Virus record (IMG/VR): IMGVR_UViG_3300029787_000144 | Span: 376-37,166 of that record | Source: a virus | Length of the DNA stretch: 36,791 nucleotides | Reading direction: 5' to 3' (one strand) | In this document: positions 4,480 to 25,304 of the stretch, piece after piece | Position numbering within the stretch: the first letter of the stretch is position 1 | Layout: each line of letters begins with the position of its first letter | The notes under the pieces: generated by a model | What the model was told of the DNA's origin: nothing | The model's input: the letters and a program-made list of their open reading frames with translations, nothing else | The model's database searches: none | Position numbers and translations under genes: made by a program

Positions 4480-4757
4480 TACCTAACTCCTTTGAACTTC
4501 CCACCTCTGCCGGGAACAACACCGCCCATGTTCATCTTTATAGGCTTGACTTTACCACCGCCCATCATACCAACGGGCATAGACTTGGTTGTGTCCATAA
4601 CTTCGCCACCCATTTCCATTTTTTTAAAAAGACCTGATTTTTTTCCAGCGTCCATCATTATTTTAATCATTTCTTTTTCTGATATAGATCCTCCACCTTT
4701 TCTTATTGCTGAAGATGCTTTATCGTCTAAAATCTTACCTACACTTTTTCCTGGCAT
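4479..4757 (-). CDS. Small Gly/Met/Lys-rich MxxGG phage protein
   Basis: A 92-residue protein. The N-terminal half looks helical (GKILDDKASSAIRKGGGSISEKEMIKIMMDAG); the C-terminal half is a series of MEMGGEV, GMMGGGKV and NMGGVVPGRGGKF repeats like those in the two genes that follow. Its ATG overlaps the TerL stop (TAATG), implying translational coupling to TerL. Such MxxGGxV tails recur in several virion proteins of this phage. Function unknown; probably structural. Confidence 0.75.
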   Translation of the reverse strand: MPGKSVGKILDDKASSAIRKGGGSISEKEMIKIMMDAGKKSGLFKKMEMGGEVMDTTKSMPVGMMGGGKVKPIKMNMGGVVPGRGGKFKGVR

Positions 4758-6241
4758 TAGTAATACTCCATTTTTCTTCTATATCCTGGTTCAAATTCTT
4801 CATCATCAGGTGTGGATATAAAACCACCTTGTCTGAATCTTAGTATAGCCTGTGTCATCGAATCTGCCAAGTCATCATGGTCGCCATGTGGAAAACTAGC
4901 ACATTCTTCAACAACTTCCTCTGCAAAATTAGCATCTGGTCTCCATACCATACCACTTTCAAAGACAGGCGCACAAGCATTCATTCTTGCAAACTTATCA
5001 GCACCTTTACTCGGTGTAAAGGGTGTAACTGGAATACCCATACGTCTAAGCTCTTGTGTTAAAGGCATACCACTAGCTTTTTGCTCTATTAAAATCATGT
5101 CTGGATCATAAGCCTCGCTTAGTTCTTGAGCCTTTAATTTTAATTCTGGAAAATCCCATCTGCCCTTTTCAGCATCAAGTAAAATAATCGCATCACCCTC
5201 ACCCTCTACTGGAGTAAATATCCCCCAAGTAGTAATAGCACTATAGTCAGCACGATCATTTTTACTGAAAGCGGTATCGTATGATTGTATGACGTATGAA
5301 CACGGAGGTGGTTCACTATTATCCCAAACATTCCACCACTCCCTTTTTATAATCGCTCCTTCTTCTGCCGTTGGGTTCTGCATATACTGTGCATTCCACT
5401 TGGCTACGGGAATAGATGCCTTTACACCATCTAATTCGTCTCGACTCCAATATTCGGGCCATAATACATTGTTCGTCTCTGGAAATATTGCTGGAAATTC
5501 CACGACTTCCCATTTGTCTGCGCCTCCTTCAGCTTGTTTTGCAATAACTCTTGCCGTTAAATCCTTAATACCCCATCTCGTCATAACAATGATAATCGAA
5601 CCACCTGGCTGCAATCTCTGTCTTGGACCTGATGTATACCATTCATAAATACCGTCTAAAGCTGTCGGACTCAGTGCGTCTTGTTCAGATACAGGATCGT
5701 CAATAATACACAAATCAGCTCCACGACCAGCTAACGCACCACCAACTCCAACAGCGTAATATTCACCTCCACCATTTGTTGACCATCTACCTGATGCCTT
5801 CGCATCACTAGCTAATTTTATATCAGGAAATATATCTCTGAAATCATCGCTATCAATTAAATTCTTAACCTTACGACCAAAACCCACAGCTAACTCTGCC
5901 GTGTGTGTCGCTTGTATTATCTTTAAATCAGGTCGTTTGCCCATAAGCCACGCTGGAAACAAGTAACTCGCAAACTCTGATTTAGTATGTCTAGGCGGCA
6001 TATTGATAATTAAACGCTTGATTTTACCATCGGCTACTTGCTGTAATTTATTTGCATAAATCTTATGATGCTTACCCTCAATGAAAGAGGGCCAAATCTT
6101 CTTTACAAACTTTAAATAATTATCTTGGTTTTTTTTCTGATCTTCCAACAAAGAAAGTCTATCAAGTAACGGAGCTAGTTTGGATAACTCATCATCACTT
6201 AAATATTCTGCAAATTCCTCTGGTTTGATCTGCTCATTCAT
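4757..6241 (-). CDS. terL: Terminase large subunit
   Basis: The 494-residue DNA-packaging motor: an ATPase that pumps DNA through the portal and a nuclease that cuts the concatemer. ATPase domain: adenine-binding/Walker A-like PPRHTKSE at 82-89, Walker B CIIDD with acids at 181-182, and a TRWG stretch near 221 acting as coupling motif. RNase H-like nuclease domain: SYDTAF with D322, LIEQKAS with E386, and HGDHDDLADS with D456/D457 and D460, giving the expected acidic triad. The PRHTKS form of Walker A is the common one in Terminase_6/RNaseH-like terminases. Start and stop overlap both neighbours (TAATG). The small subunit is separated by about 7 kb of accessory cassettes. Confidence 0.95.
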   Translation of the reverse strand: MNEQIKPEEFAEYLSDDELSKLAPLLDRLSLLEDQKKNQDNYLKFVKKIWPSFIEGKHHKIYANKLQQVADGKIKRLIINMPPRHTKSEFASYLFPAWLMGKRPDLKIIQATHTAELAVGFGRKVKNLIDSDDFRDIFPDIKLASDAKASGRWSTNGGGEYYAVGVGGALAGRGADLCIIDDPVSEQDALSPTALDGIYEWYTSGPRQRLQPGGSIIIVMTRWGIKDLTARVIAKQAEGGADKWEVVEFPAIFPETNNVLWPEYWSRDELDGVKASIPVAKWNAQYMQNPTAEEGAIIKREWWNVWDNSEPPPCSYVIQSYDTAFSKNDRADYSAITTWGIFTPVEGEGDAIILLDAEKGRWDFPELKLKAQELSEAYDPDMILIEQKASGMPLTQELRRMGIPVTPFTPSKGADKFARMNACAPVFESGMVWRPDANFAEEVVEECASFPHGDHDDLADSMTQAILRFRQGGFISTPDDEEFEPGYRRKMEYY

Positions 6242-8303: not shown

Positions 8304-8711
8304 TTAATTCATTTTTGACAACATCAGTTGCATCTCTTTATCACATTGTAACAAAACTTTGGACACATATACCCTATCATTCATCTTTTCAGCCTCTGGA
8401 ATCATGTGCGATATGGCATTACTCAACTTCCATATCCTCTCTTTGTCAAATTCACTCAACGGATTAGCATTTTCATCAAAATCACGCACTTCAGCATGAC
8501 TCTTACTAGCCTCGCCATCATTCATCAGGTACAAAACTGCATATTTGATCGGTATCGGTATCTGATAAGTGTCAGTCTCATAACACCTATAACCCCGCTC
8601 ACTCAATCCTAGCTTCTGCGCCATCACAATTTGACTCAAACCCAATAACTTACGCTTCTCACGCAGCTCAGAACCATTCCAATCACAATAACTCTTGTCG
8701 TTCTTCTTCAT
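8304..8711 (-). CDS. XRE-family helix-turn-helix regulator
   Basis: A 135-residue protein whose first 60 residues form an XRE/Cro-type HTH: LREKRKLLGLSQIVMAQKLGLSERGYRCYETD. The ATG at 8711 has GGAGGAG 7 nt upstream, better than the ATG at 8735. The C-terminal 70 residues are helical and may dimerise or sense a signal. It overlaps the preceding small gene by 29 nt and lies immediately before the terminase/portal block, so it may control late genes or its own promoter at 8953-8982. In XRE proteins the second helix of the HTH reads DNA bases. No integrase is present, so a lysogeny repressor role is not supported. Confidence 0.8.
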   Translation of the reverse strand: MKKNDKSYCDWNGSELREKRKLLGLSQIVMAQKLGLSERGYRCYETDTYQIPIPIKYAVLYLMNDGEASKSHAEVRDFDENANPLSEFDKERIWKLSNAISHMIPEAEKMNDRVYVSKVLLQCDKEMQLMLSKMN

Positions 8712-8946
8712 TTGGCATCTCCTCCAATATTCCATAACGCATTAAATCTCTAGCAAAGTCCAAATCACTTCCAAACCTCACTGGCTTACCAGTCCAATTG
8801 CACGCAATCGCTGCACAAGTTCTTACAAAGTCTCCCCTTATCGGGTCAGCGCCTACAAACGTCTTGTATAACTCGTCAATGACACCCTCTGGTCCAGGGG
8901 ATTCAAAATAAGACTTCGTTGGATATTCTAGTTTATACTTAGGCAT
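8683..8946 (-). CDS. Small phage protein, possibly from a leaderless transcript
   Basis: An 87-residue product starting MPKYKLEYPTKSYF. It contains GPEGVIDELYKTFVGADPIRGDFVRTCAAIACNW and a C-terminal MPNEEERQELL. No family recognised. The first possible ATG is at 8964 (six more residues) with only a weak AGG upstream. The ATG at 8946 has no Shine-Dalgarno but lies 6 nt after a good -10 box, as in leaderless mRNAs. It is followed with a 29-nt overlap by the XRE gene, so the two form one small operon, perhaps a regulator with its partner. Confidence 0.7.
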   Translation of the reverse strand: MPKYKLEYPTKSYFESPGPEGVIDELYKTFVGADPIRGDFVRTCAAIACNWTGKPVRFGSDLDFARDLMRYGILEEMPNEEERQELL

Positions 8947-8982: not shown

Positions 8983-9128
8983 TATTTTTTTTATAAAATT
9001 TTTTTTGGGTCGTGTTTTAAAAACATGGTGGGCGTATCTGGGAAACTCGGCGAAAAGAAACACCAGTACAAAAAATATTGTTTTGGGTGGGTGTGGGGTA
9101 CACCCCACCCCGAATTACAGACAAAAAA
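8965..9128. other. Intergenic region with T-runs and a G/C-rich inverted repeat
   Basis: No gene is seen here. The stretch holds the promoter above, long A/T runs, and an imperfect hairpin around 9089-9115 in which GTGGGTGT can pair with ACACCCCAC with one bulged base. Only three G-runs are present, too few for a strong intramolecular quadruplex. Confidence 0.4.
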
Positions 9129-9155
9129 ATAACCTATAAAAATATTATAGGTTAT
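9129..9155 (-). terminator. Intrinsic terminator of the amidoligase unit
   Basis: A perfect 11-bp inverted repeat (ATAACCTATAA / TTATAGGTTAT) with a 5-nt loop; on the minus strand it is followed by a run of T. It starts 26 nt after the amidoligase stop codon. The stem is A/T-rich, so efficiency is uncertain. Confidence 0.7.
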
Positions 9156-9180
9156 CTTAATTAGATTTAAAAATTACACA

Positions 9181-10362
9181 TTAACTAAAATGTGTAATCC
9201 TATTTAATAAGTATGTTTTATATTGATCTTCTAAACCTACTAGAAAATGATCTTCAACACTTTCATCTATTGAGTTACTAGTAATTGAAACCTCAATATA
9301 ATTAGGTATTTTATAACCATTCAAATCATGTTGATCGTTACTAGTTCCATATCTGTGATTGTAGAATTGTTGTGTTAAACATTCTACAGAGTGATGACTA
9401 AACTTTGCTCTAATAGTTGATATTGTTCTTCTTACTGATTTAGCATTATCAATATTACAATGTGCCATAATCTCTCTAGTAGTTGCTCCATTATCTGTCT
9501 TACATAAAGACCATAATAAACCTAATTTAGAATTAGGATTAAATGGCTGATTAGGTAATTGTTGTTGCTCAATTCTAGAGTTATTAGTTAACAATCTATT
9601 GTTAATAGAGTGATTAAACATATTAGCTAACATCATAACAAATGGTTTAATTTTATCTCTTTCAAGTGTTGCAGAATGTTGTCTAAACTCAATAGTTCCA
9701 TATCTTGCATATGATTGAAGATTAACAGAGAAAAATTTGTCTCTTCTGTTTGTTGCTCCATGTCTTTGAATGGCATTTAATAAAGAAGAAATAGAACCAT
9801 CACATGATCTTATTGCATCAATACATAAATCTAGACCTTGGCAAAATCTGTTATTAGTTCTACTAGGTGGAAATATTTTATTTATTTCTAATTGATAAAT
9901 AGCATATCTTAAAACTACATCTTTAATAACTGCATTGTCTAAGACATCATCAAATGATGATGAAGATTGAAGAATATAAGATCTATTATTTCTGTATGTT
10001 TCAATTGATAGTTTTGTAAAAGCATCATTTGTTATATTTGCAGAAATAGGTTTTAAACCTATATGACAATGAACACCACAACATTTTCTAACATTACAAC
10101 CATTATTAACAAGGACTTTTAAAACCTTATTAACATAGTACCATGATAGCTCACTATCGATTGATAATATTGGAAATGCTATTTCGAAATCAACTCCATG
10201 TGTTCCATCTGTTTTGACATTAATAAAATTAAGTTCTTCATCATTATCAAATACAGTTTGTAGTTCATTGATTGATTGAGTATTACCTCTGCTAGTAAAT
10301 ACACCCTCAAATTCTAGTCCCATTGTTAGGCTAGTTCTATTTGTATTTTGTAAAATATCCAT
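9181..10362 (-). CDS. GS-fold amidoligase (Amidoligase_2-like) with C-terminal winged-helix-like region
   Basis: A 393-residue enzyme matching the glutamine-synthetase-like COOH-NH2 ligases, which use ATP to join a carboxylate to an amine, often glutamate to a peptide or amine. Visible motifs: GLEFEG with E17/E19, KTDGTHGVDFE with D52 and E60, CGVHCHIG with H98/H100, and IEFRQHSAT with E225, R227 and H229. These match the family's GxExE, D...E, CGxHxHxG and EFRxHxxT signature. Residues of about 285-325 look like a winged helix, not usual for the family. AAGGAT precedes the ATG by 5 nt. It forms its own unit between a repeat linker and a terminator, and the next unit upstream encodes a gamma-glutamylcyclotransferase. 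Substrate unknown. Confidence 0.85.
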   Translation of the reverse strand: MDILQNTNRTSLTMGLEFEGVFTSRGNTQSINELQTVFDNDEELNFINVKTDGTHGVDFEIAFPILSIDSELSWYYVNKVLKVLVNNGCNVRKCCGVHCHIGLKPISANITNDAFTKLSIETYRNNRSYILQSSSSFDDVLDNAVIKDVVLRYAIYQLEINKIFPPSRTNNRFCQGLDLCIDAIRSCDGSISSLLNAIQRHGATNRRDKFFSVNLQSYARYGTIEFRQHSATLERDKIKPFVMMLANMFNHSINNRLLTNNSRIEQQQLPNQPFNPNSKLGLLWSLCKTDNGATTREIMAHCNIDNAKSVRRTISTIRAKFSHHSVECLTQQFYNHRYGTSNDQHDLNGYKIPNYIEVSITSNSIDESVEDHFLVGLEDQYKTYLLNRITHFS

Positions 10363-10427: not shown

Positions 10428-10441
10428 ACAAGCTATAATAA

Positions 10442-10779
10442 CGAACAATTTCATTTTTTTTGCACTTTTTTTTTAATTGTTCGCAATTTTTTGGAGGTTT
10501 TATTTGGATAATCTGGTCTGAAAATCGGATACCGAACAAGTCCGAACCCGATCCCGACCCGAAGCCCGACCCGATCCCGAGTCCGAAGCTGTTGGCAGCG
10601 GCGCTGGTCAAAAAACCGAACAATTGTTCGCAATTTTAGCTTGATAGCAGCAGCAAGCGGCGACCTGTGCGGTAGAAACGCTTCTGTTTACCTAGCTACA
10701 GGCCCCGAATACCGAACAATTGTTACCAGTTACGGGTACTGGTTCGTCCTTCTGGTTAGAAAAAACGAACAATTGTTCG
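10442..10779. repeat. GC-rich linker 3 with CGAACAATTGTTCG palindromes
   Basis: Noncoding between the cyclotransferase terminator and the amidoligase. CGAACAATT copies lie at 10442, 10475 (reverse), 10713, and as complete palindromes CGAACAATTGTTCG at 10617-10630 and 10766-10779 (the latter extends to 16 bp). Between them is GC-rich sequence unlike the surrounding AT-rich genes. ORFs through it are only repeat translations. The repeat family is shared with the linkers at 11971-12205 and 12893-13220. Confidence 0.85.
10532..10589. repeat. CCCGAN short repeats
   Basis: About ten near-consecutive copies of CCGA(A/C/T) or CCCGA(A/C/T) in under 60 nt, for example CCCGACCCGAAGCCCGAC. The same hexamer family is dense at 13200-13285 and scattered beside each CGAACAATT copy, so it appears to be part of the linker repeat unit. 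Confidence 0.65.
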
Positions 10780-10811
10780 TTCTCGAAGCCCGGCAGAGCC
10801 AGACACCGAGC

Positions 10812-10849
10812 AAAAAAAAACCCAGACGCCTGAAGCATCTGGGGTTTTT
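10812..10849 (-). terminator. Strong terminator after the cyclotransferase gene (bidirectional shape)
   Basis: CCCAGATGC, loop TTCAG, GCGTCTGGG on the minus strand (nine positions, one mismatch) followed by nine T. The plus strand also ends in a T-run, so it could work both ways. It lies about 20 nt after the cyclotransferase stop at 10869 and closes the 11.3-10.9 kb unit. Confidence 0.85.
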
Positions 10850-10868
10850 ACCGAACAAGTTTAACAAT

Positions 10869-11315
10869 CTAACCTGAAGCCCTCCCCATCTTCAAGATCT
10901 CTTGAGTCCGATCAGCTTGATTGTAAGCATCTCGCAAAGCCCAAGCCAAATGATCTTCATCAAGACCAAAGTCCTTGTAGCCTTTTGCTATGCTATCGTA
11001 ATATTGTTTGAATGGTAAGCCCACTCCTTTCCTAGACATAACGTAAGTCATGGCATTCAAACCATCTACATGGATAATTTTCTTTTTATACAAATGAGGA
11101 AAGCCCTCGAATCTATCGAGTGCTTTCTCATCTGCTTTTTGTATTTCCCACAAACCTATCTGAACCTCATCCCCCTTTGAGGGTACAATGTCAGCAACTG
11201 TATTAAAAACTAACTTCCAATCTTTTAAGACAGTCCCATATAAAGGGACTGCCGTTGGGGTTCTTGTTTTCATATTTTTTTTATTAAGGTTTGCACCATA
11301 AGATGCGTATAACAT
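10869..11315 (-). CDS. Gamma-glutamylcyclotransferase (GGCT/AIG2-like)
   Basis: A 148-residue protein of the GGCT fold, which releases 5-oxoproline from gamma-glutamyl amines or peptides. It opens with MLYASYGANL, the YGxN substrate-binding loop at residues 6-9, followed by a typical ADIVPSKGDEVQIGLWEI strand pair and LDRFEGFPHLYKKKIIHV, where E70 is the expected catalytic acid. Length is normal. Its ATG overlaps the previous stop by one base (TAATG). Together with the amidoligase in the next unit it could form and cleave, or cyclise, gamma-glutamyl linkages; amidoligases and AIG2-type cyclotransferases are, to my recollection, linked in comparative-genomic work. Third gene of a three-gene unit ended by the strong terminator. 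Confidence 0.85.
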   Translation of the reverse strand: MLYASYGANLNKKNMKTRTPTAVPLYGTVLKDWKLVFNTVADIVPSKGDEVQIGLWEIQKADEKALDRFEGFPHLYKKKIIHVDGLNAMTYVMSRKGVGLPFKQYYDSIAKGYKDFGLDEDHLAWALRDAYNQADRTQEILKMGRASG

Positions 11316-11572
11316 TATTCTGTTTTCTCCTCATAATTTTGACTAATAAGTTCAACTGCTAATTCGTAAGGATCATCAAGAATATCAAAGATTTCATCAA
11401 TTCTTTTGTTTAATAATTCACATTCCTTTGATGTAAATAATGTATTACCATTTTTGTCTATTTGTTCTGATGGGTCATCATCAAAATGAAACAATTTATT
11501 ATTAATATGAAGTGAAGTAATAAACTTCTCGCACATATCTTTATTTGTAAGAGTTGTCTTATAATTAATCAT
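11315..11572 (-). CDS. Small acidic phage protein of unknown function
   Basis: An 85-residue acidic protein with a KDMCEKFITSLHINNKLFHFDDDP stretch and a helical C-terminus (LNKRIDEIFDILDDPYELAVELISQNYEE). Start and stop overlap both neighbours by one base, so it is translated as part of the same operon as the 89-residue gene before it and the cyclotransferase after it. No family recognised. Confidence 0.7.
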   Translation of the reverse strand: MINYKTTLTNKDMCEKFITSLHINNKLFHFDDDPSEQIDKNGNTLFTSKECELLNKRIDEIFDILDDPYELAVELISQNYEEKTE

Positions 11573-11841
11573 TATTTTTCTCCCATGAATTTTACAACAG
11601 TATCAAAATCATCTGTTTCTAAAACATTAACTTGATAATTATCAGAGTATTCATCATCATTTGTAATTGAGAATCTTTTCCAATCTTCCCCCTCTCTCAT
11701 CTTAGGATTAGGGTGATCGATAAAAAGTTTTTTGTTTTTAAAGCTATAAGATGGACAAGCATCATTTCCATAACTTGTATGCTCCCACTCTTTAGGTATT
11801 TTGTTTTCTAAATCTTTTACACATTCTTTAAAGTAAGTCAT
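11572..11841 (-). CDS. Small phage protein, first gene of the cyclotransferase unit
   Basis: An 89-residue product starting MTYFKECVKDLENKIPKEW. Longer readings start at 11925 or 11970, but a promoter nearly identical to that of the 12.8-kb unit lies inside the longer frame (11875-11903), and GCCAATGGAGAAACGAATG matches the GCCAA-GGAGA-start layout of that unit, with GGAG 6 nt before this ATG. The C-terminal half has ITNDDEYSDNYQVNVLETDDFDTVVKFMGE. No family recognised. It heads the operon with the 85-residue gene and the cyclotransferase. Confidence 0.65.
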   Translation of the reverse strand: MTYFKECVKDLENKIPKEWEHTSYGNDACPSYSFKNKKLFIDHPNPKMREGEDWKRFSITNDDEYSDNYQVNVLETDDFDTVVKFMGEK

Positions 11842-11874
11842 TCGTTTCTCCATTGGCTTGTTTAAGTTAATACT

Positions 11875-11903
11875 AATATAAGCATTGAGTTCCTCCATGT
11901 CAA
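11875..11903 (-). promoter_or_regulatory. Sigma70-like promoter of the cyclotransferase unit
   Basis: TTGACA (11903-11898), 17 nt, TATATT (11880-11875) on the minus strand. AATGCTTATATTA around the -10 box is shared exactly with the promoter at 12810-12838, and AGGAA in the spacer is also shared. It lies just after repeat linker 2 and 34 nt before the preferred start codon. Confidence 0.7.
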
Positions 11904-11970
11904 GGATTAATATATCATATGACATAATTTTTATGTTTAATATTTGCACTAACAAACGTCTGGGAGGCAA

Positions 11971-12205
11971 CGAACAATTGTTCGCTTCTAAAAAACAATA
12001 GGTTGTAATAATGTAGCTGTAGGTTACGGCGCATTAGCTGGTTTACAACTGCTGCCGCTGCATAATACCGAACAATTGTGAACCCGAAGTCGCACTGGGT
12101 AAGCTGGTTAGCCGCGCCAAGCCTTCCCTGGTTGCGTAAGCGAACAATTGTGAACCCCGAACCCGACCTGGAAAAAAAGACCAGTGCTGCTGCAAGCGAA
12201 CAATT
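11971..12205. repeat. GC-rich linker 2 with CGAACAATTGT repeats
   Basis: Noncoding between the terminator at 12220-12247 and the promoter at 11875-11903. It has a full palindrome CGAACAATTGTTCG at 11971-11984, two copies of CGAACAATTGTGAACCC (12069 and 12141) and a half copy at 12197. CCCGAA/CCCGAC hexamers, CTGGTT and GCTGC(T)GC words fill the gaps. No gene is seen in 11842-12267. Confidence 0.85.
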
Positions 12206-12219
12206 TCTGATTCAGGCAC

Positions 12220-12247
12220 AAAAAAAAGCGACCCGAAGATCGCCCTT
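12220..12247 (-). terminator. UUCG-tetraloop intrinsic terminator
   Basis: On the minus strand GCGATC, loop TTCG, GGTCGC (six pairs, one G-U) is followed by seven or more T. The C(UUCG)G loop is the extra-stable form. It lies 20 nt after the stop of the 167-residue gene and separates that unit from linker 2. Confidence 0.8.
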
Positions 12248-12267
12248 TTCTCTTCCAGCCAACGGAA

Positions 12268-12771
12268 TTAGTTGGTTCTATAGATGTAATATGTTTCGTT
12301 GTTATATTCAGGACAGAAGAATTTAAACAAACCTATTTCGTTCTCTTCTCCGTCATAGCTTGACAAGAAGTGACCTCTGCCATCTGACCTAACGGCATCT
12401 TCCACGAAATGATCGAAATCTTTTATTAACTTCAATATAGCTTCGTTTGCTGACTCGCATTTTTCTTGAAGCAACTTAAAAACGTCTTCATCAATACCAC
12501 TATGGCAAGATAAAAAACTTGGATTAAATGCCCAAACAGTTTCCTTAATATATTCTGCTACTTTCTCGTCTGCTTCGTCATCAGTTAGGATCATGTACTC
12601 TTCATTACCAAAACAATAAGTGTCGTTAGACTCGTAATGTATTTCTTTTTCTTCTTCTTCTATTAGCTCTAAATGTTTTGATAAAGCCACAACTCTAAAA
12701 TCTTCTTGATCGTTAGATTGATTGACGATTGGCTCAAGTGCTTTGATTACGTTGTTTTCTAATGTACCCAA
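12268..12771 (-). CDS. Phage protein of unknown function with TTG start
   Basis: A 167-residue acidic protein. The start is TTG (12771), with AAAGGAG six nt upstream and no closer ATG in frame. It contains EIHYESNDTYCFGNEEYMILTDDEADEKVAEYI, a helical central part, and a C-terminal FLSSYDGEENEIGLFKFFCPEY and YYIYRTN, a pattern I associate with an uncharacterised family in marine phages. It stands alone in a transcription unit with its own promoter and terminator between two repeat linkers, the layout of a moron gene. Function unknown. Confidence 0.75.
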   Translation of the reverse strand: MGTLENNVIKALEPIVNQSNDQEDFRVVALSKHLELIEEEEKEIHYESNDTYCFGNEEYMILTDDEADEKVAEYIKETVWAFNPSFLSCHSGIDEDVFKLLQEKCESANEAILKLIKDFDHFVEDAVRSDGRGHFLSSYDGEENEIGLFKFFCPEYNNETYYIYRTN

Positions 12772-12809
12772 TTTAATCTCCTTTGGCTGTTTTTGTTTCT
12801 CTTACTATT

Positions 12810-12838
12810 AATATAAGCATTCAATTCCTGTAAGTCAA
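12810..12838 (-). promoter_or_regulatory. Sigma70-like promoter of the single-gene cassette
   Basis: TTGACT (12838-12833), 17 nt, TATATT (12815-12810) on the minus strand, 39 nt upstream of the TTG start. The AATGCTTATATTA block is identical to that at 11875-11903. It abuts repeat linker 1, which lies upstream of it. Confidence 0.7.
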
Positions 12839-12875
12839 CAACTAAATAATTTTTTTTAACGGCGTTAACCTGGGG

Positions 12876-12885
12876 CCCAGCTGGG
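12876..12885. repeat. CCCAGCTGGG palindrome
   Basis: Perfect 10-bp palindrome at the promoter-proximal edge of linker 1, next to a second inverted repeat TTAACG-G-CGTTAA at 12856-12868. The CCCAGCTGGG word partly recurs at 12988-13005. Confidence 0.5.
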
Positions 12886-12892
12886 TAAATAG

Positions 12893-13220
12893 CGAACAAT
12901 TGTGATATTCCTTCTGCTGGTCATCCCTGGTCGCAGCGTGTGCTGCTGGTTAAAATAGCGAACAATTGTGCGGTATCTCGAAGGATGCCCAGCTTCACAG
13001 CTGGGTGTAAGCTGTGAAAGCGAACAATTGTGAGTTCCTTCATAGCTGGGAGATCCAGGCAGCCCGAACCCGAACAATTGTGATCTCCCTTCAGGGGATG
13101 ACCAGGGCCCCGAAGTCCGACAATCCCGAACAATTGTGCGGTATGCTGCTGCCGTGAACCCGAAACCGAACAATTTTGCGTGGACCAGGGCTATGCTGCT
13201 GCCCGAAATACCGAACAATT
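12893..13220. repeat. GC-rich linker 1: seven CGAACAATT(GTG) repeats
   Basis: Copies start at 12893, 12959, 13021, 13071, 13127, 13167 and 13212, all in one orientation, 40-66 bp apart; the first five read CGAACAATTGTG. Downstream flanks form subfamilies: GTGA-(T/G)-TTCCTTC-GCTGG (12893, 13021, similar at 13071) and GTGCGGTAT (12959, 13127), so the array is a decayed tandem repeat of a roughly 50-60-bp unit. It fills the gap between the small terminase stop and the promoter at 12810-12838. No credible gene is present; ORFs here translate the repeat. Confidence 0.9.
12988..13018. other. Two mutually exclusive hairpins within linker 1
   Basis: CCCAGCT-TCAC-AGCTGGG (12988-13005) and TTCACAGCT-GGGTGTA-AGCTGTGAA (12994-13018) are both perfect inverted repeats and share nine bases, so only one can form at a time. 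It is not in a gene. Confidence 0.55.
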
Positions 13221-13263
13221 CATAGCCCGACCAGCCCGAAAGCCCGACACCCCCGAAACCCGA

Positions 13264-13280
13264 GGGTCAACGCCTGACCC
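13264..13280. other. Hairpin downstream of small terminase
   Basis: GGGTCA-ACGCC-TGACCC, perfect 6-bp stem, 20 nt past the small terminase stop. There is no T-run, so Rho-independent termination is doubtful. Confidence 0.4.
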
Positions 13281-13299
13281 GACACGCCAAGTAAATATG

Positions 13300-13827
13300 C
13301 TATTTAGTGGGTTTCACATTACTTTGTTCTATCGTAATTGGTTCGTTACGGGATTTGTTCGCTATTTTCATGCGTTTATGGGCAATCTCTTGAAATTCCT
13401 GAAGTTTTGACAGTATTTCTTCTCTTGTCATGCTATCTGTACGTTCATGTAGCACATGGGCTTTGTTTACAAGCAGTCCAGTAGCCTTTAAGCGTAGTTC
13501 TTCTGCTCTGATAGCTTCGCCAAATTTACCTGACTCCCATGCTTCGTTACGGATTTTGAGTAGATCACGCACCGACTTATCGATTGTGACCCCGAACCGA
13601 CTTTGTGCTTCGTCACGCATTTCCTGATAACGCTCTTGGACGACTGGGTTACGGAGTAACCTGACGGCATCGACACCTGGATTTGCATATCCTGCTGACC
13701 TAGCTGCTGAAGTTTGCGTCATGTCCTTGTGCATGAAGTTATTCAGAAAGTCTTGTTGTTTATCTGTTAGTCTTTTCCAACCAGCGAGTCGTTGTTCTTT
13801 GGTTAGGTCTTGTGCTACCTTTGGCAT
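13300..13827 (-). CDS. terS: Terminase small subunit
   Basis: A 175-residue protein with the layout of Terminase_2-type small subunits, which recognise the packaging site and regulate TerL. The N-terminal part has LTDKQQDFLNNFMHKDMTQTSAARSAGYANPG, the typical helix-turn-helix in which repeated TxTxAARxAGY is diagnostic, followed by LLRNPVVQERYQEM and a helical oligomerisation region (IRAEELRLKATGLLVNKAHVLHERTDSMTREEILSKL). GGAG is 10 nt before the ATG. It is separated from TerL by three cassette units and an XRE gene, which is unusual as the two are normally adjacent. The array at 13879-14083 directly upstream is a candidate binding site. Confidence 0.85.
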   Translation of the reverse strand: MPKVAQDLTKEQRLAGWKRLTDKQQDFLNNFMHKDMTQTSAARSAGYANPGVDAVRLLRNPVVQERYQEMRDEAQSRFGVTIDKSVRDLLKIRNEAWESGKFGEAIRAEELRLKATGLLVNKAHVLHERTDSMTREEILSKLQEFQEIAHKRMKIANKSRNEPITIEQSNVKPTK

Positions 13828-13878
13828 CTTATTTTATCTCCATTAAAATAGGTTCTATAGGGTAAGGTGGGGTGGTTT

Positions 13879-14083
13879 ACTTACCACCCACCTATACCCC
13901 CCTTTAGGGGGGAAGTTCGGTAAGTAAAAAAGTAGGAGCGAAATCAATGACTTACGACCTAAAACTAACTTACCGTGGTAAGAAGTAACCTCGGTAAGTA
14001 GATATACGCAAACCGAGGCTACATAAGGGTTTGCCAACTTACCGACCAATCTACTTACCGTGGTAAGTTGGTAAGTGGTAAGT
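13879..14083. repeat. ACTTACC/GGTAAGT palindromic repeat array
   Basis: At least nine copies of the 7-mer ACTTACC or its complement in about 200 bp: 13879, 13919, 13968 (paired with a near-complete partner as ACTTACC-GT-GGTAAGA), 13993, 14037, then the perfect 16-bp palindrome ACTTACCGTGGTAAGT at 14053-14068 followed by direct copies at 14070 and 14077. It also holds a CCCCCC-TTTA-GGGGGG hairpin (13897-13912) and CCTCGGT/ACCGAGG (13989-14018). It lies between a zinc-finger gene and the small terminase. A 79-codon frame crosses it (13855-14094) but is probably not a gene. Confidence 0.85.
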
Positions 14084-14086
14084 AAA

Positions 14087-14383
14087 TCACTCATAAAGCA
14101 CCACAATTTTGGGATCATCGGTGCGTTTATAGAACGTACCATTGAGGGTACAAACGTAGCCTAAATATCGCATCATTTGATCGTAATTTCTGTAGCATTC
14201 AGGGCATGAATATACATCATACGAACAATTCATATGGTGCAATACGGAGTGATCCAACTGTTGAGCGATACCTTTTTCGGTTGCACACCCGAGGCAAATT
14301 GTTCGGTTATTCATTACCAGTTCCATGCCTGAAACAATTTTTTCTTGGCAATTTGCACATTTTGTTTGTTTTCTTTTAGTCAT
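14087..14383 (-). CDS. Zinc-binding phage protein (three CxxC motifs)
   Basis: A 98-residue protein with CANC near residue 9, CLGC near 32 and CPEC near 60, plus extra Cys/His between them (HHMNC), enough to bind one or two zinc ions. AGGAGG lies 5 nt before the ATG, immediately after the preceding stop. Many CxxC phage proteins bind nucleic acid or recruit host proteins; nothing more can be read here. Its stop codon lies at the edge of the ACTTACC array. Confidence 0.75.
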   Translation of the reverse strand: MTKRKQTKCANCQEKIVSGMELVMNNRTICLGCATEKGIAQQLDHSVLHHMNCSYDVYSCPECYRNYDQMMRYLGYVCTLNGTFYKRTDDPKIVVLYE

Positions 14384-14692
14384 TTAAACCTCCTGACTCA
14401 CGCTTTGTGTTTCCATTTCTCTGTGGAGAGTGGTGTAGTCACGCCTTTTGGCTATGTTCTCCCACTTTTTCACGGCTTGATCGTAGTTATCAGCTTCTAT
14501 TTCAACCATGTAATACTTTGTTTCTTTACAATGAATAACAAACTTTTCTTTTGGTAGTTTTCTAATCATAACATCTTTTTCCTCTTTAAAATTACGCCAC
14601 CATGATCTAATAAGTTCTTTTCTTATTAGAGTTATTTCCTCCATATTTTTAGATTTTATTGCTTCTTCAATTCTAGTAATTATTTCACTCAT
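14384..14692 (-). CDS. Small phage protein of unknown function
   Basis: A 102-residue protein. The first 45 residues form a helical MSEIITRIEEAIKSKNMEEITLIRKELIRSWW region, followed by a beta-rich KFVIHCKETKYYMVEIEADNYDQAVKKWENIA segment whose end resembles the common phage pattern for small alpha/beta domains that alternate sheet and helix. Adjacent to both neighbours in the same operon. No family recognised. Confidence 0.7.
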   Translation of the reverse strand: MSEIITRIEEAIKSKNMEEITLIRKELIRSWWRNFKEEKDVMIRKLPKEKFVIHCKETKYYMVEIEADNYDQAVKKWENIAKRRDYTTLHREMETQSVSQEV

Positions 14693-14693
14693 T

Positions 14694-14936
14694 TTATGCT
14701 CCCTCGAAACAACCAGCCATAATTTGATGATCTATTGGTTCTTCGCCAAAGTTATCAAATATAGCATCTTCTATTAACAATTCGCTATTTGGTATATCAG
14801 CACGACATTGTTCTATATTATCGTATTGCACTTGGCTTTGGTGCATGACACATATTTGTTCGCCACCGTCATAGCGACTGCCCTCGATCCATACGACACA
14901 TATTAACACAAACATTTTAACTATATATTCCTCCAT
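14694..14936 (-). CDS. Small protein with N-terminal hydrophobic segment
   Basis: An 80-residue product with MFVLICVVWIEG at residues 8-19, short for a membrane anchor but possibly a signal peptide. The rest has several Cys (QICVMH, EQCRAD, AGCFEG) and is acidic. The first ATG has no Shine-Dalgarno; GGAGG lies inside codons 2-3, 14 nt before the ATG at 14915, so the real start is unclear. It follows two tandem hairpins. Function unknown. Confidence 0.55.
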   Translation of the reverse strand: MEEYIVKMFVLICVVWIEGSRYDGGEQICVMHQSQVQYDNIEQCRADIPNSELLIEDAIFDNFGEEPIDHQIMAGCFEGA

Positions 14937-14943
14937 AATTAAC

Positions 14944-14988
14944 GAGATGGGCTACCCTAGAAAGGATTAAAGACCGATAGCCCATCTC
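14944..14988 (-). promoter_or_regulatory. 11-bp-stem hairpin before the 80-residue gene
   Basis: GAGATGGGCTA and TAGCCCATCTC pair perfectly around a 23-nt loop, 8 nt upstream of the next start codon. No T-run follows on the minus strand, so a processing or translational control role is more likely than termination. Confidence 0.6.
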
Positions 14989-22164: not shown

Positions 22165-22953
22165 TTAACCCCAACAAGTCTCTTTATAATTACACCACTT
22201 ACAATCAAACATATCTTTAGATTGAGATATTCGTGGCAACATTTCACCAGCTTTTGTAGCTTGTAATATATTAACTGCTTTATCACTTATTTCTTGAGCG
22301 AGAAACTTATCAAAAGGAACAAGTTCATAATATATTTCGCTAGTATTTTTATTGACTACAGTAAACAAACATGGGTGTTCTGTTAATTCCATATACGCTT
22401 GATACAAAGCAACTTGAGCAGCATATATAGGATTAGTCTTTGCCATACCCTTGGCTTGAAACTCTTTAAACTTTCTGTCATTGGCTGACTTGTTTTCCCA
22501 CAAAGATGGATAGCCCATACCAACAGGTCCTCCACATATTACGCCATCTATGTGACCTCTTATCTGTCCATCAGATATAGAAAAGCCATATTGATCCCCA
22601 TTTTTCTTTTCAGTTCGCAAATCAAATCCTGCTTGTTTTAACCAATTAGCCATACTGTCTTCTATCTCGTGTCCAAATTGGAATATCCTTAATGTCTGTG
22701 GACTAAAGTGTCTGTCTTTATCAACTTCCTGACCCATATAAGTATATTGTATTTTTCTAGAACACTTCTCTCCTAAAGAAGACCCTCCTAAATATGTGCG
22801 CCTTGGGATACTATCTGACTTTTCTTTAATAGCTTTGTCAACAAATTCTGATATTTGTTCTTCAAAACGGTATGTCTTCAAGTCCTTCTGGTTGCCTGAT
22901 TGGGCCGAAGTATTTAATATGAGATTGTGTAACATAGTCGCAGACAAACTCAT
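22165..22953 (-). CDS. Cas4/RecB-like PD-(D/E)XK nuclease with Fe-S cysteines
   Basis: A 262-residue exonuclease. Catalytic residues: GHIDG with D136, LWENKS with E153 and K155. Fe-S cysteines: C64 (GEKCSRKIQY) and the C-terminal CKWCNYKETC (C251, C254, C260), as in Cas4/AddB-type nucleases. GGGAG sits 7 nt before the ATG. It overlaps the previous 79-residue gene by 92 nt, much more than other pairs here. Likely the 5'-3' or 3'-5' exonuclease of the recombination module with SSB and Sak4; no CRISPR array is present, so a Cas role is not suggested. Confidence 0.85.
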   Translation of the reverse strand: MSLSATMLHNLILNTSAQSGNQKDLKTYRFEEQISEFVDKAIKEKSDSIPRRTYLGGSSLGEKCSRKIQYTYMGQEVDKDRHFSPQTLRIFQFGHEIEDSMANWLKQAGFDLRTEKKNGDQYGFSISDGQIRGHIDGVICGGPVGMGYPSLWENKSANDRKFKEFQAKGMAKTNPIYAAQVALYQAYMELTEHPCLFTVVNKNTSEIYYELVPFDKFLAQEISDKAVNILQATKAGEMLPRISQSKDMFDCKWCNYKETCWG

Positions 22954-23101
22954 ATTCTATCTCCCTTGACGATTGTATTACAGATATTAAAGCGACCATC
23001 TGTTCTTCTGTTAAATCGCATAGTCTTTTCTCCCAACCTACTTTGTTAAATACTTTAGCTGCATTCTTTAATGAATTGTTTTCATCGTTGGCTCTATCCA
23101 T
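22862..23101 (-). CDS. Small phage protein overlapping the nuclease start
   Basis: A 79-residue product. AGGAGGT lies 9 nt before the ATG, so translation is likely. Helical NSLKNAAKVFNKVGWEKRLCDLTEEQMVALISVI followed by IKYFGPIRQPEGLEDIPF. Its last 92 nt overlap the nuclease gene in another frame, where both starts have good ribosome sites. Function unknown. Confidence 0.65.
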   Translation of the reverse strand: MDRANDENNSLKNAAKVFNKVGWEKRLCDLTEEQMVALISVIQSSREIEYEFVCDYVTQSHIKYFGPIRQPEGLEDIPF

Positions 23102-23370
23102 CTACTACTAACCTCCTGATCTTCTGATTCGTGAGAATAAAAATCCAATCTTAAAATCTCTTCTTGACCAGACATTACCTTACAAAAACCACCTAATATT
23201 TCATTTTCTAATTCGTCCATAATATCTTCCATAGCTTCAGTTATTGTATTCATCAACTGATCTTGATTATGTATGTTGGCTGTATGCAAAAACATTGAGC
23301 CATCAATAACCTTTTGAACACCAACATCATTAGATACATTTATATTATAATTTAGCGTTAATCTTTCCAT
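23068..23370 (-). CDS. Small phage protein of unknown function
   Basis: A 100-residue product starting MERLTLNYNINVSN; GAGGG lies 6 nt before this ATG, better than the ATG at 23403. It has an acidic helical middle (EAMEDIMDELENEILGGF) and ends SRWIEPTMKTIH. It overlaps both neighbours. No family recognised. Confidence 0.65.
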   Translation of the reverse strand: MERLTLNYNINVSNDVGVQKVIDGSMFLHTANIHNQDQLMNTITEAMEDIMDELENEILGGFCKVMSGQEEILRLDFYSHESEDQEVSSRWIEPTMKTIH

Positions 23371-23638
23371 CTTTACCCTCTGCCCACAAAGCACCATAAC
23401 CAATTACATCTATAGGATTATCAATATTTTTTGGATTTTGTGAATCTCTAACAAGTTTTTGGACAATACAAAATTTATACATATCATCATAAGTCAAATC
23501 AGATTTTAACTTGTGCCTCCATAATACGTTCATAATTTTAGCTATTGATTCATGTGTGTCTTTGGCATCACCATGAGTTCTTGCTCTTGAGCCATTAATT
23601 AATTGTTCTGCTTTTTGTAAAGCCTCACTACGCTGCAT
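23345..23638 (-). CDS. DUF6378-like phage protein
   Basis: A 97-residue protein with the layout of a widespread phage family (DUF6378, from memory): GSRARTHGDAKDTHESIAKIMN, DMYKFCIVQKLVRDSQNPKN, DNPIDVIGYGALWAEG. Members lie among replication and nucleotide-metabolism genes and their function is unknown. It overlaps the helicase end and the next gene's start. Length is normal. Confidence 0.75.
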   Translation of the reverse strand: MQRSEALQKAEQLINGSRARTHGDAKDTHESIAKIMNVLWRHKLKSDLTYDDMYKFCIVQKLVRDSQNPKNIDNPIDVIGYGALWAEGKDGKINAKL

Positions 23639-25304
23639 TTTTTTCTCCTATACTTGCAATTCTGTTATCTATATCTTTTTTATTCCATAAATAATTTAAC
23701 CAACAAGCAGCCTTATACTTGTTCCAACTAAAATCCATAACCCTAACTGTTATACCACAATTCTTTAGTGCTTGTGTTTGTTTAGGTGTAACAGCTTCAT
23801 TTAACCATCTTTTACCTTTCCTTGCGCCATCACTATCTTCAATCTTTCTTAGAAAGTCATCAGCAGCGGCTATGGCTTGTTCCTTAGTTCCAATACTAAC
23901 AACCCTTAATCGTCCATTAGAACGCTTTACAAGGGCTATAGAGACATCATCTAAGTGTGCAACTAATCCAAAGCCATTAAACCCACTAGCACTCACACAG
24001 CGTCCATTATCAAACAAATCTACCCAACGATAAGGCGATCTATCCATAAGGTCAACTTCGGTCATAATGAAGTCTTCTAATACTTCTTTATCTTGCTGAC
24101 CAAACTCATATCCACATAAAGGACATTCACGAGATGATAATGGTACAACTGATTCGCATTGTGGACATGTTTTTTCAGGAGCAGCACCTGTTCCTCTAGC
24201 CTCTGAACCTTCTAAGTCAACTAACTCGTCTAATGATCCATGTGTAAGTACACTTGTCCCAAAATCTAAAACTATACAATCTTTTTTTATAATTCCGGGG
24301 TGTTCTTCAGGATCTATTGTTCGCAGTCCACGACCAATCATTTGCACCATTGTAGATTTATATGAACATGGTCTTGTAAGAACAATGCAACTAACTGGTG
24401 GAGCATCAAATCCTTCTGTAAGCACAGCAACATTAACAACGACCTGAACATCTCCATGTTCTAAATCATGTAATATTTGTTGTCTTTCATCGCTTGGAGT
24501 TTCACCCGTAAGTAGTTCAGACCTAATGCCAGCCCTACGATATTCATCGCAAACATCTTGTGCATGTATAACTGTAGAACAAAAGACAACTGTTTTTCTA
24601 TCTCCCGCTTTCTCTTGCCATTCCTGAACAATACGTTCATTGATGGCTCTTTTATTCATAATACGCTCAACTTCGCCCATATCAAAATCAGATATAGTTT
24701 TGCGAACATTTTCTAATTCTTGTCTGACACCTACATCTACAACAAATGTCTTTGGTGGTACGAGAAAACCCTCACGAATTAATGTGGTGATTTCTATTTG
24801 ATGCGAACAATTATTAAATATGCTACGTAAACCTTTTCTATCTCCACGATTAGGAGTAGCAGTAAATCCAACAATCTCAACTGAATTGTTAGCTTCTTTA
24901 ACTCTATCAATAATTCTTGTATATGTTTCTGCTATTATATGATGGCTTTCATCAACAACAACCATGTCAAAATTACACATGTTTTCTAAATTGTTCGGTC
25001 TTGAAAGCGTCTGAACCATACTAAATATAGTTTCACCAGACCAATCTTTCTCTGATCCATCTACTACACTTGTTGTTATTTTTGGATTTACTCTTGAAAA
25101 CTTTGTTCTGTTTTGCCTGACTAACTCGTCACGATGTTGTAAAATTAAAATCTTTTTGCCTTGCTTGTATCGTTTACCGACTAAAGCTGAAAGCATGATT
25201 GTCTTACCTGCTCCCGTTGGAGCGACAACAATAGTGTTTTTGTGTTTGGTAAGAGCAATAGAAGCATCGTCAACTGCTATCTTTTGATATGGTCTAAGAA
25301 TCAT
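23628..25304 (-). CDS. SF2 DEAD/DEAH-box helicase with C-terminal zinc ribbon
   Basis: A 558-residue helicase in the UvsW/ResIII group. Q-motif-like RPYQ near the start, Walker A APTGAGKT (28-35), motif II DESH (118-121), motif III TAT (148-150), motif V LTEGFDAPPV and motif VI QMIGRGLRT in the second RecA domain (about 300-335). CPQC ... CPLC (about 385-405) forms a zinc ribbon. The last 150 residues are not recognised. Such phage helicases remodel forks and recombination intermediates. It overlaps the zinc-finger gene before it and the DUF6378 gene after it. Confidence 0.9.
   Translation of the reverse strand: MILRPYQKIAVDDASIALTKHKNTIVVAPTGAGKTIMLSALVGKRYKQGKKILILQHRDELVRQNRTKFSRVNPKITTSVVDGSEKDWSGETIFSMVQTLSRPNNLENMCNFDMVVVDESHHIIAETYTRIIDRVKEANNSVEIVGFTATPNRGDRKGLRSIFNNCSHQIEITTLIREGFLVPPKTFVVDVGVRQELENVRKTISDFDMGEVERIMNKRAINERIVQEWQEKAGDRKTVVFCSTVIHAQDVCDEYRRAGIRSELLTGETPSDERQQILHDLEHGDVQVVVNVAVLTEGFDAPPVSCIVLTRPCSYKSTMVQMIGRGLRTIDPEEHPGIIKKDCIVLDFGTSVLTHGSLDELVDLEGSEARGTGAAPEKTCPQCESVVPLSSRECPLCGYEFGQQDKEVLEDFIMTEVDLMDRSPYRWVDLFDNGRCVSASGFNGFGLVAHLDDVSIALVKRSNGRLRVVSIGTKEQAIAAADDFLRKIEDSDGARKGKRWLNEAVTPKQTQALKNCGITVRVMDFSWNKYKAACWLNYLWNKKDIDNRIASIGEKNAA

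Follow-up and report, generated by a model that had tools for sequence, protein, structure and literature searches.

A nine-base word clustered in GC-rich linkers between terS and terL recurs inside the genes of a marine phage lineage

Introduction

What are the three GC-rich linkers that separate small gene units between the genes for the small (terS) and large (terL) terminase subunits of the virus record IMGVR_UViG_3300029787_000144? We analysed positions 376–37,166 of this 37,166-base record (36,791 nucleotides; hereafter the window, whose coordinates are used for its features), in which nearly all genes lie on the minus strand. An earlier note, made from the letters of the window, had described repeats of one short word, CGAACAATT, in the linkers and had read them as insertion or recombination joints, or as binding arrays. 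Our analysis shows that the linkers are only the densest part of a genome-wide word. Judged from patterns in the DNA, this word is probably the binding site of a protein that marks the DNA of the phage itself or controls it. Our preferred reading, held tentatively and short of even confidence, is that the linkers are clusters of an asymmetric recognition word in double-stranded DNA, (A-rich)-[C/G]CGAACAATT, that may act as boundary sites in the manner of stoperators.

Results and discussion

The word in the linkers and beyond

The most over-represented 8- to 10-mer of the window is CGAACAATT, with 29 copies compared with 0.42 expected and a maximum of 3 in dinucleotide shuffles. A recount returned the seven, four and five linker copies given in the earlier note, as well as its three perfect 14-bp palindromes CGAACAATTGTTCG (at 10617, 10766 and 11971), and 500-bp bins bore out the GC-richness that it had described (0.44–0.49 in the bins holding most linker sequence vs. 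0.27–0.33 in adjoining gene bins). A single copy is one putative site, and CGAACAATTGTTCG is two overlapping sites. The positions of the word are as follows.

12885–13299: linker 1, after terS; seven CGAACAATT copies (12893–13220) with GC-rich spacers, at a spacing of 40–66 bp
11963–12219: linker 2; four positions (11971–12205), with one perfect dyad at 11971–11984
10440–10815: linker 3; five positions (10442–10779), with perfect dyads at 10617–10630 and 10766–10779
17829–17842: variant dyad CGAACAAATGTTCG
14222, 14297, 15900, 19660, 19737, 20053, 20808, 24804 and 24989 (span 14222–24997): single CGAACAATT copies among the early genes
34518: a further single CGAACAATT copy

All seven copies in linker 1 share one orientation, with AATTGTTCG on the gene strand. 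Helical phasing of the arrays was not seen; the 40–66 bp spacings vary by a few bp. The ten copies outside the linkers, nearly all of them within genes, had been overlooked previously. A search of the linker zone for Rfam families found none, and an RNA element was rejected as a reading of the word because the genic copies lie on both strands.

Selection on the word as DNA

Ten genic copies occur in the right part of the window, compared with 0.59 expected and a maximum of 3 in 300 synonymous-codon shuffles, and the related contig L196 likewise holds 10 genic copies vs. 0.51 expected. Genic copies are found on both strands and in every reading frame, and their excess over synonymous-codon shuffles argues that the word is selected as DNA and kept by codon choice. 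The excess over the shuffle null was 12–17 fold in early genes and ~9 fold in late genes, and it was absent from two control phages. Genic sites favour C or G as the base immediately preceding the word, with a preference for A-rich sequence upstream of that base. Because the word is selected inside genes genome-wide, it is not confined to joints.

Two comparisons between relatives bear on how the word is maintained. Between linker 1 of the window and that of L130, none of 54 motif bases had changed vs. 65 of 322 spacer bases (20%), and this base-level conservation is what one would expect of a binding array, as the earlier note had proposed. In the primase gene, two clades hold the word in the same 19-codon stretch using different codons on opposite strands (at RTI codons in one clade, and at GIVR codons a few codons off in the other), a pattern that looks like site turnover.

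Spread and dialects across the phage lineage

We surveyed the word in two samples. The first was chosen by motif, from an IMG/VR scan for the 14-mer dyad with close relatives added, and yielded 76 motif-rich contigs; some IMG/VR matches with one dyad are probably due to chance. A TerS related to that of the window (49–98% identity) was encoded in 60 of the 76, and word density was ~0.3–1.5 copies per kb across these genomes. The second sample was blind to the motif: a TerS-profile search returned at least 498 related contigs, of which 67 loci extending at least 500 bp past terS were kept, and 62 of these 67 carried two or more CGAACAATT copies downstream of terS. Related whole records of 37.6, 58.4 and 32.3 kb contained 34, 47 and 28 copies, respectively, and no copy of a reversed control word. 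When loci of the clade with AATT at the dyad centre were pooled, CGAACAATT occurred 270 times vs. 2.0 expected, and the best one-mismatch variant 31 times.

A sister clade (AATA) carries CGAACAATAGTTCG at the corresponding places (G002, G003, G005, G006 and G020). Its dyads have CGAACTATTGTTCG on the sense strand in 32 of 32 cases, and its genic enrichment lies in the 7-mer CGAACAA. The word changes in step across the genome between clades, in what can be termed dialects.

Compared by TerL, the window is closest to pelagiphages and marine phages. Relatives of TerS were found neither in INPHARED (tblastn) nor in GTDB genomes (TerS profile), so that, judged by these collections, the lineage has no cultured member. 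More distant TerS families hardly use the word: the HTVC027P-type family had 2 CGAACAATT copies in 716 kb and the 023Pt-type family none in 187 kb. The terS–terL zones of these families contain, in part of the loci, other GC-rich repeated words (AAGCTTCAAG-type and GAGCGAGC/GGGCCCACCC). Individual GC-rich repeat linkers between terS and terL were noted in pelagiphage HTVC027P (L125:15918-17165; GCTTGAAGCTTG heptads) and in 023Pt_psg01 (L124:15432-17840; GGGCCCACCC). Such repeats were not mentioned in the pelagiphage literature that we searched, and the matches listed by a full-text literature search for CGAACAATT were unrelated by title.

The earlier note had proposed to search host genomes for the word. 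Among sampled bacteria, none of 385 alphaproteobacterial and 185 gammaproteobacterial genomes was enriched in it. The 11-mer GCGAACAATTG occurred at most 13 times per genome in the alphaproteobacteria and no more often in the gammaproteobacteria. The 16-mer CCGAACAATTGTTCGG matched at least 117 scattered stretches in GTDB, and the word was not enriched in 16 genomes picked from these matches. In view of this lack of enrichment in sampled bacteria, the word looks phage-specific.

These patterns bring in the main rival to control at unit boundaries, which we consider rather unlikely: a genome-identity word by which a phage machine (for packaging, recombination, replication or a self-sparing nuclease) would tell phage from host DNA, with the linkers as a loading zone. 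It would account for the density of the word, its maintenance in genes by codon choice on both strands, the clade dialects, the lack of enrichment in the proteobacterial genomes and the other repeated words in the terS–terL zones of other terS families. However, an identity mark does not need clustering at boundaries or a one-sided orientation after terS, and the contrast with the host rests on sampled bacteria only. DNA uptake sequences of Neisseria and Pasteurellaceae offer a parallel. They are bacterial genomic words with a role in transformation, 9–12 bp long; they occur about once per kb, both within genes and as inverted pairs where genes end, and form dialects. The word described here is likewise hugely enriched genome-wide, genes included, but it belongs to phage genomes and is not enriched in the bacteria sampled. 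It is doubtful, although conceivable, that the lineage maintains by codon choice and dialects a self-identity word read by one of its own machines, whose dense loading zones would lie between the two terminase genes, as a phage counterpart of uptake sequences. If the word is such a self mark, it would show how a phage tells its own DNA from that of its host. More generally, hundreds of marine contigs of virulent-looking phages carry a nine-base word that recurs within genes on either strand and in any frame and that shifts in step between clades, which points to an unrecognised DNA-reading protein.

Gene exchange between the linkers

The interval between terS and terL encodes a 167-residue protein, two small proteins with a gamma-glutamyl cyclotransferase-like protein (GGCT), an amidoligase and a repressor-type helix-turn-helix protein. 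We compared its contents in the window with those in L127–L131. The genes are listed below.

13300–13827, minus strand: terS (Terminase_2, PHROG 51)
12268–12771, minus strand: slot-1 gene, 167 aa; gene body exchanged in L127, L129 and L130
11572–11925, minus strand: slot-2 gene; missing from L127, L128 and L130, different in L129
11315–11572, minus strand: slot-2 gene, 85 aa (weak match to PHROG 34896)
10869–11315, minus strand: GGCT gene (GGACT/AIG2)
9181–10362, minus strand: Amidoligase_2 family protein
8304–8735, minus strand: HTH_3 (repressor-like) protein; candidate DNA binder, not favoured
4757–6241, minus strand: terL; ~60% identity to pelagiphage and marine-phage TerL

In slot 1, the promoter and ~49 nt of the gene start are kept in L127, L129 and L130 and are followed by a different gene body until the stop. 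In slot 2, the two small genes are missing from L127, L128 and L130 and replaced by different ones in L129. The linkers and the motif persist where slot genes were swapped or lost, which is the outcome that the earlier note had named as support for its joint model. Array lengths differ by whole repeat units and deletions end in the motif, so gain and loss of units within an array is supported. In the few cases available, homology is lost at the gene leader and again at the stop codon, and the motif is not where it breaks. The zone therefore exchanges genes with breakpoints at gene edges rather than in the motif. Of the proposed joints, the part that stands is that genes are exchanged between lasting linkers; the breakpoints fall off the motif and the word is also selected in genes, so that "joints between cassettes" describes the geography and not the whole function.

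That the linkers are purely recombination joints or mobile boundary cassettes, in which terminator–palindrome–promoter blocks spread between genes with no binding protein, seems to us quite improbable. The exchange of slot genes between persistent linkers, the loss of array units between direct repeats, and the Sak4-like annealing protein, Cas4-type exonuclease and Holliday-junction resolvase encoded in the window are all consistent with it. Yet such joints would explain the neighbourhood and not the genic copies, as the word is selected in genes at the DNA level and stays unchanged while spacers drift, and exchange breaks at gene starts and stops. A described system close to this reading is the PeSL of T4-type phages, mobile regulatory cassettes of stem-loops and early promoters. 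Shared features are a terminator and promoter at gene boundaries (here a tendency) and modular exchange of the genes between them. The differences are that the constant feature here is a 14-bp dyad and array word that also occurs in genes, and that breakpoints, in the few cases compared, do not lie at the block.

The cassettes had also been described as morons, which the GGCT and amidoligase genes do not resemble in their distribution, as they recur in 49 and 42, respectively, of the 76 motif-rich contigs. That the two recur together across the lineage suggests that they belong to a pathway for modifying peptides or the cell wall and were not picked up as random morons.

Position and orientation of the sites

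Each linker is followed by a promoter-like −35/−10 pair with a 17-nt spacer and a minus-strand gene.

12838–12810, minus strand: promoter-like TTGACT-17-TATATT, slot 1; 10/12 matches, strong
11903–11875, minus strand: promoter-like TTGACA-17-TATATT, slot 2; 11/12 matches, strong
10431–10403, minus strand: promoter-like TTGTTA-17-TACAAT before the amidoligase gene; weak
10843–10821, minus strand: terminator after the GGCT gene; clear
~12220–12246, minus strand: terminator-like hairpin and T-run after the slot-1 gene; read by eye
~9124–9159: terminator; read by eye

The total of promoter-like matches in the region was not above that in shuffles, and hence only the slot-1 and slot-2 promoters count as strong. 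Among the promoters and terminators described in the earlier note, these two promoters and the GGCT terminator are the clear ones; the other terminators were read by eye. In 116 unique dyad contexts, T-runs peaked 10–30 nt upstream of the dyad, and a promoter-like −35 followed downstream in 47, peaking 60–100 nt away. The common order is gene, terminator, dyad, promoter, gene; as a tendency, the dyad stands after a terminator and ahead of the following promoter. Of 297 unique non-dyad copies in the first 600 bp downstream of terS, 249 had AATTGTTCG on the sense strand (249:48); elsewhere the bias was weak, with ratios of 161:118 further downstream and 148:105 on the upstream side of terS.

Among dispersed phage motifs in the literature that we searched, nothing came nearer than the stoperators of cluster A mycobacteriophages (L5, TipsytheTRex). 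These are tens of short asymmetric sites genome-wide, mostly in one orientation to transcription and with clade-specific variants; in L5 they are sites for a known repressor that gives temperate phages immunity, located in promoters and in short gaps between genes (PMC9283540, PMC6550527). Many copies of one short asymmetric site across a phage genome and clade variants are common to both; a mostly one-sided orientation is seen here after terS and is weak elsewhere. In contrast, many sites here lie in genes and are weakly oriented, and the boundary sites are perfect dyads in GC-rich arrays. Integrase or lysogeny genes were not seen among the searched proteins of the window and G012, which are part of all their proteins. 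Given that neither a repressor nor lysogeny was found and that genic sites are weakly oriented, we do not claim membership among the stoperators.

In the mechanism that we tentatively favour, a phage-specified, sequence-specific protein would bind the word, and bound arrays and dyads at unit boundaries would act as directional boundary elements. Like stoperators, these could stop read-through or determine how much each small unit is expressed, and scattered single sites could bring further genes under this control. As a by-product, the unchanging linkers and promoters might also supply the homology by which the genes lying between them are exchanged. Should the reader be a boundary or silencing protein, the system would show how compact phages insulate exchangeable gene slots.

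Several observations weigh against this mechanism. The dyads are too far from the −35 for ordinary operators, and the dyad that follows the major capsid gene directly adjoins its stop codon and precedes the terminator. Orientation bias in genes is weak (63:45 unique sites), and the similar excess in early and late genes suits a mark on the whole genome better than a repressor of early genes. Immunity stoperators of the classical kind would be unexpected, since the proteins searched included no lysogeny gene. Finally, the recognition helix of the HTH_3 protein is common to the window and the AATA clade and is not shared by L196 (AATT).

Dyads that abut or nearly abut the stop of the major capsid gene and are followed by a terminator were noted at L014:3370, L069:2925, L073:4279, L082:313, L091:1147 and L009:7566. 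A second dyad, CGAAG-AATTAA-CTTCG, lies a short way further on in several of those contigs.

The dyad plan also raises a host-factor site, at which a LexA-like or other host regulator would bind GAAC-N4-GTTC dyads; we regard this as highly improbable. The Gram-positive LexA (DinR/Cheo) box is CGAACRNRYGTTCG, and the CGAAC-N4-GTTCG plan, with the half-sites of Gram-positive SOS boxes, is shared. Four such dyads, at least three of them intergenic, also occur in the unrelated phage contig L090. However, the AATT (or AATA) centre misfits CGAACRNRYGTTCG, whose consensus there is RNRY; an SOS system would not be expected to have arrays of half-sites or copies within genes; and the dyads lie mostly 60–100 nt upstream of the −35 rather than overlapping promoters. 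Furthermore, no evidence points to a Gram-positive host, the TerL of the window is closest to those of pelagiphages and marine phages, and the sampled proteobacterial genomes are not enriched. In the fetched part of L090, a 62.6-kb contig, there were no homologues of window proteins, and CGAACAATTGTTCG is paired with TTAGACGTAATTACGTCTAA at 419, 1896 and 2507. The L090 dyads are perhaps a host regulator site reached independently.

A separate array at terS and candidate readers

Directly upstream of terS lies a second, different array.

13879–14083: GGTAAGT/GTAAGT array; candidate packaging or origin site

The 263 bp at 13828–14090 hold ten GTAAGT, nine of them GGTAAGT. Relatives with TerS identity of at least 85% have 7–11 GTAAGT copies upstream of terS, and in some distant relatives ACGGTAA/TAACGTA repeats replace the array. 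This compact array is the better packaging or origin candidate, and a more natural TerS or origin site than the linkers.

The presence of this array bears on the proposal that the linkers themselves are a packaging (pac) or replication-origin array, bound downstream of terS by the small terminase subunit or an initiator. This was among the roles suggested earlier and now appears improbable. A position next to terS fits a pac/cos array, 5–7 co-oriented copies directly follow terS in many relatives, and terS families at ~29% identity use different repeated words nearby. The compact GGTAAGT array competes for the role, though, and dyads of the linker word are also found at further unit boundaries and downstream of the capsid gene, with single copies in genes. 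Moreover, the helix-turn-helix region of TerS is identical in the AATT and AATA clades.

As candidate readers of the word, we considered two encoded proteins and one modification. The HTH_3 protein has an ordinary repressor-type fold, with no match below E 0.001, and was set aside because its recognition helix does not follow the dialect. TerS was rejected in view of its unchanged helix and the GGTAAGT array as a better partner. Phosphorothioation at GAAC, raised by an SspD match at 19098–19937, was rejected because relatives without an SspD gene at the locus (e.g., L131) keep the word.

The window also encodes a portal protein, a helicase and a primase-helicase. The SspD/DndC-like protein (PAPS-reductase fold; 19098–19937) lies beside the primase gene, and a Mom-like DNA modification protein is found at the same place in the relative G012 (L329:15104-15946), so that DNA-modification genes seem to be exchanged there.

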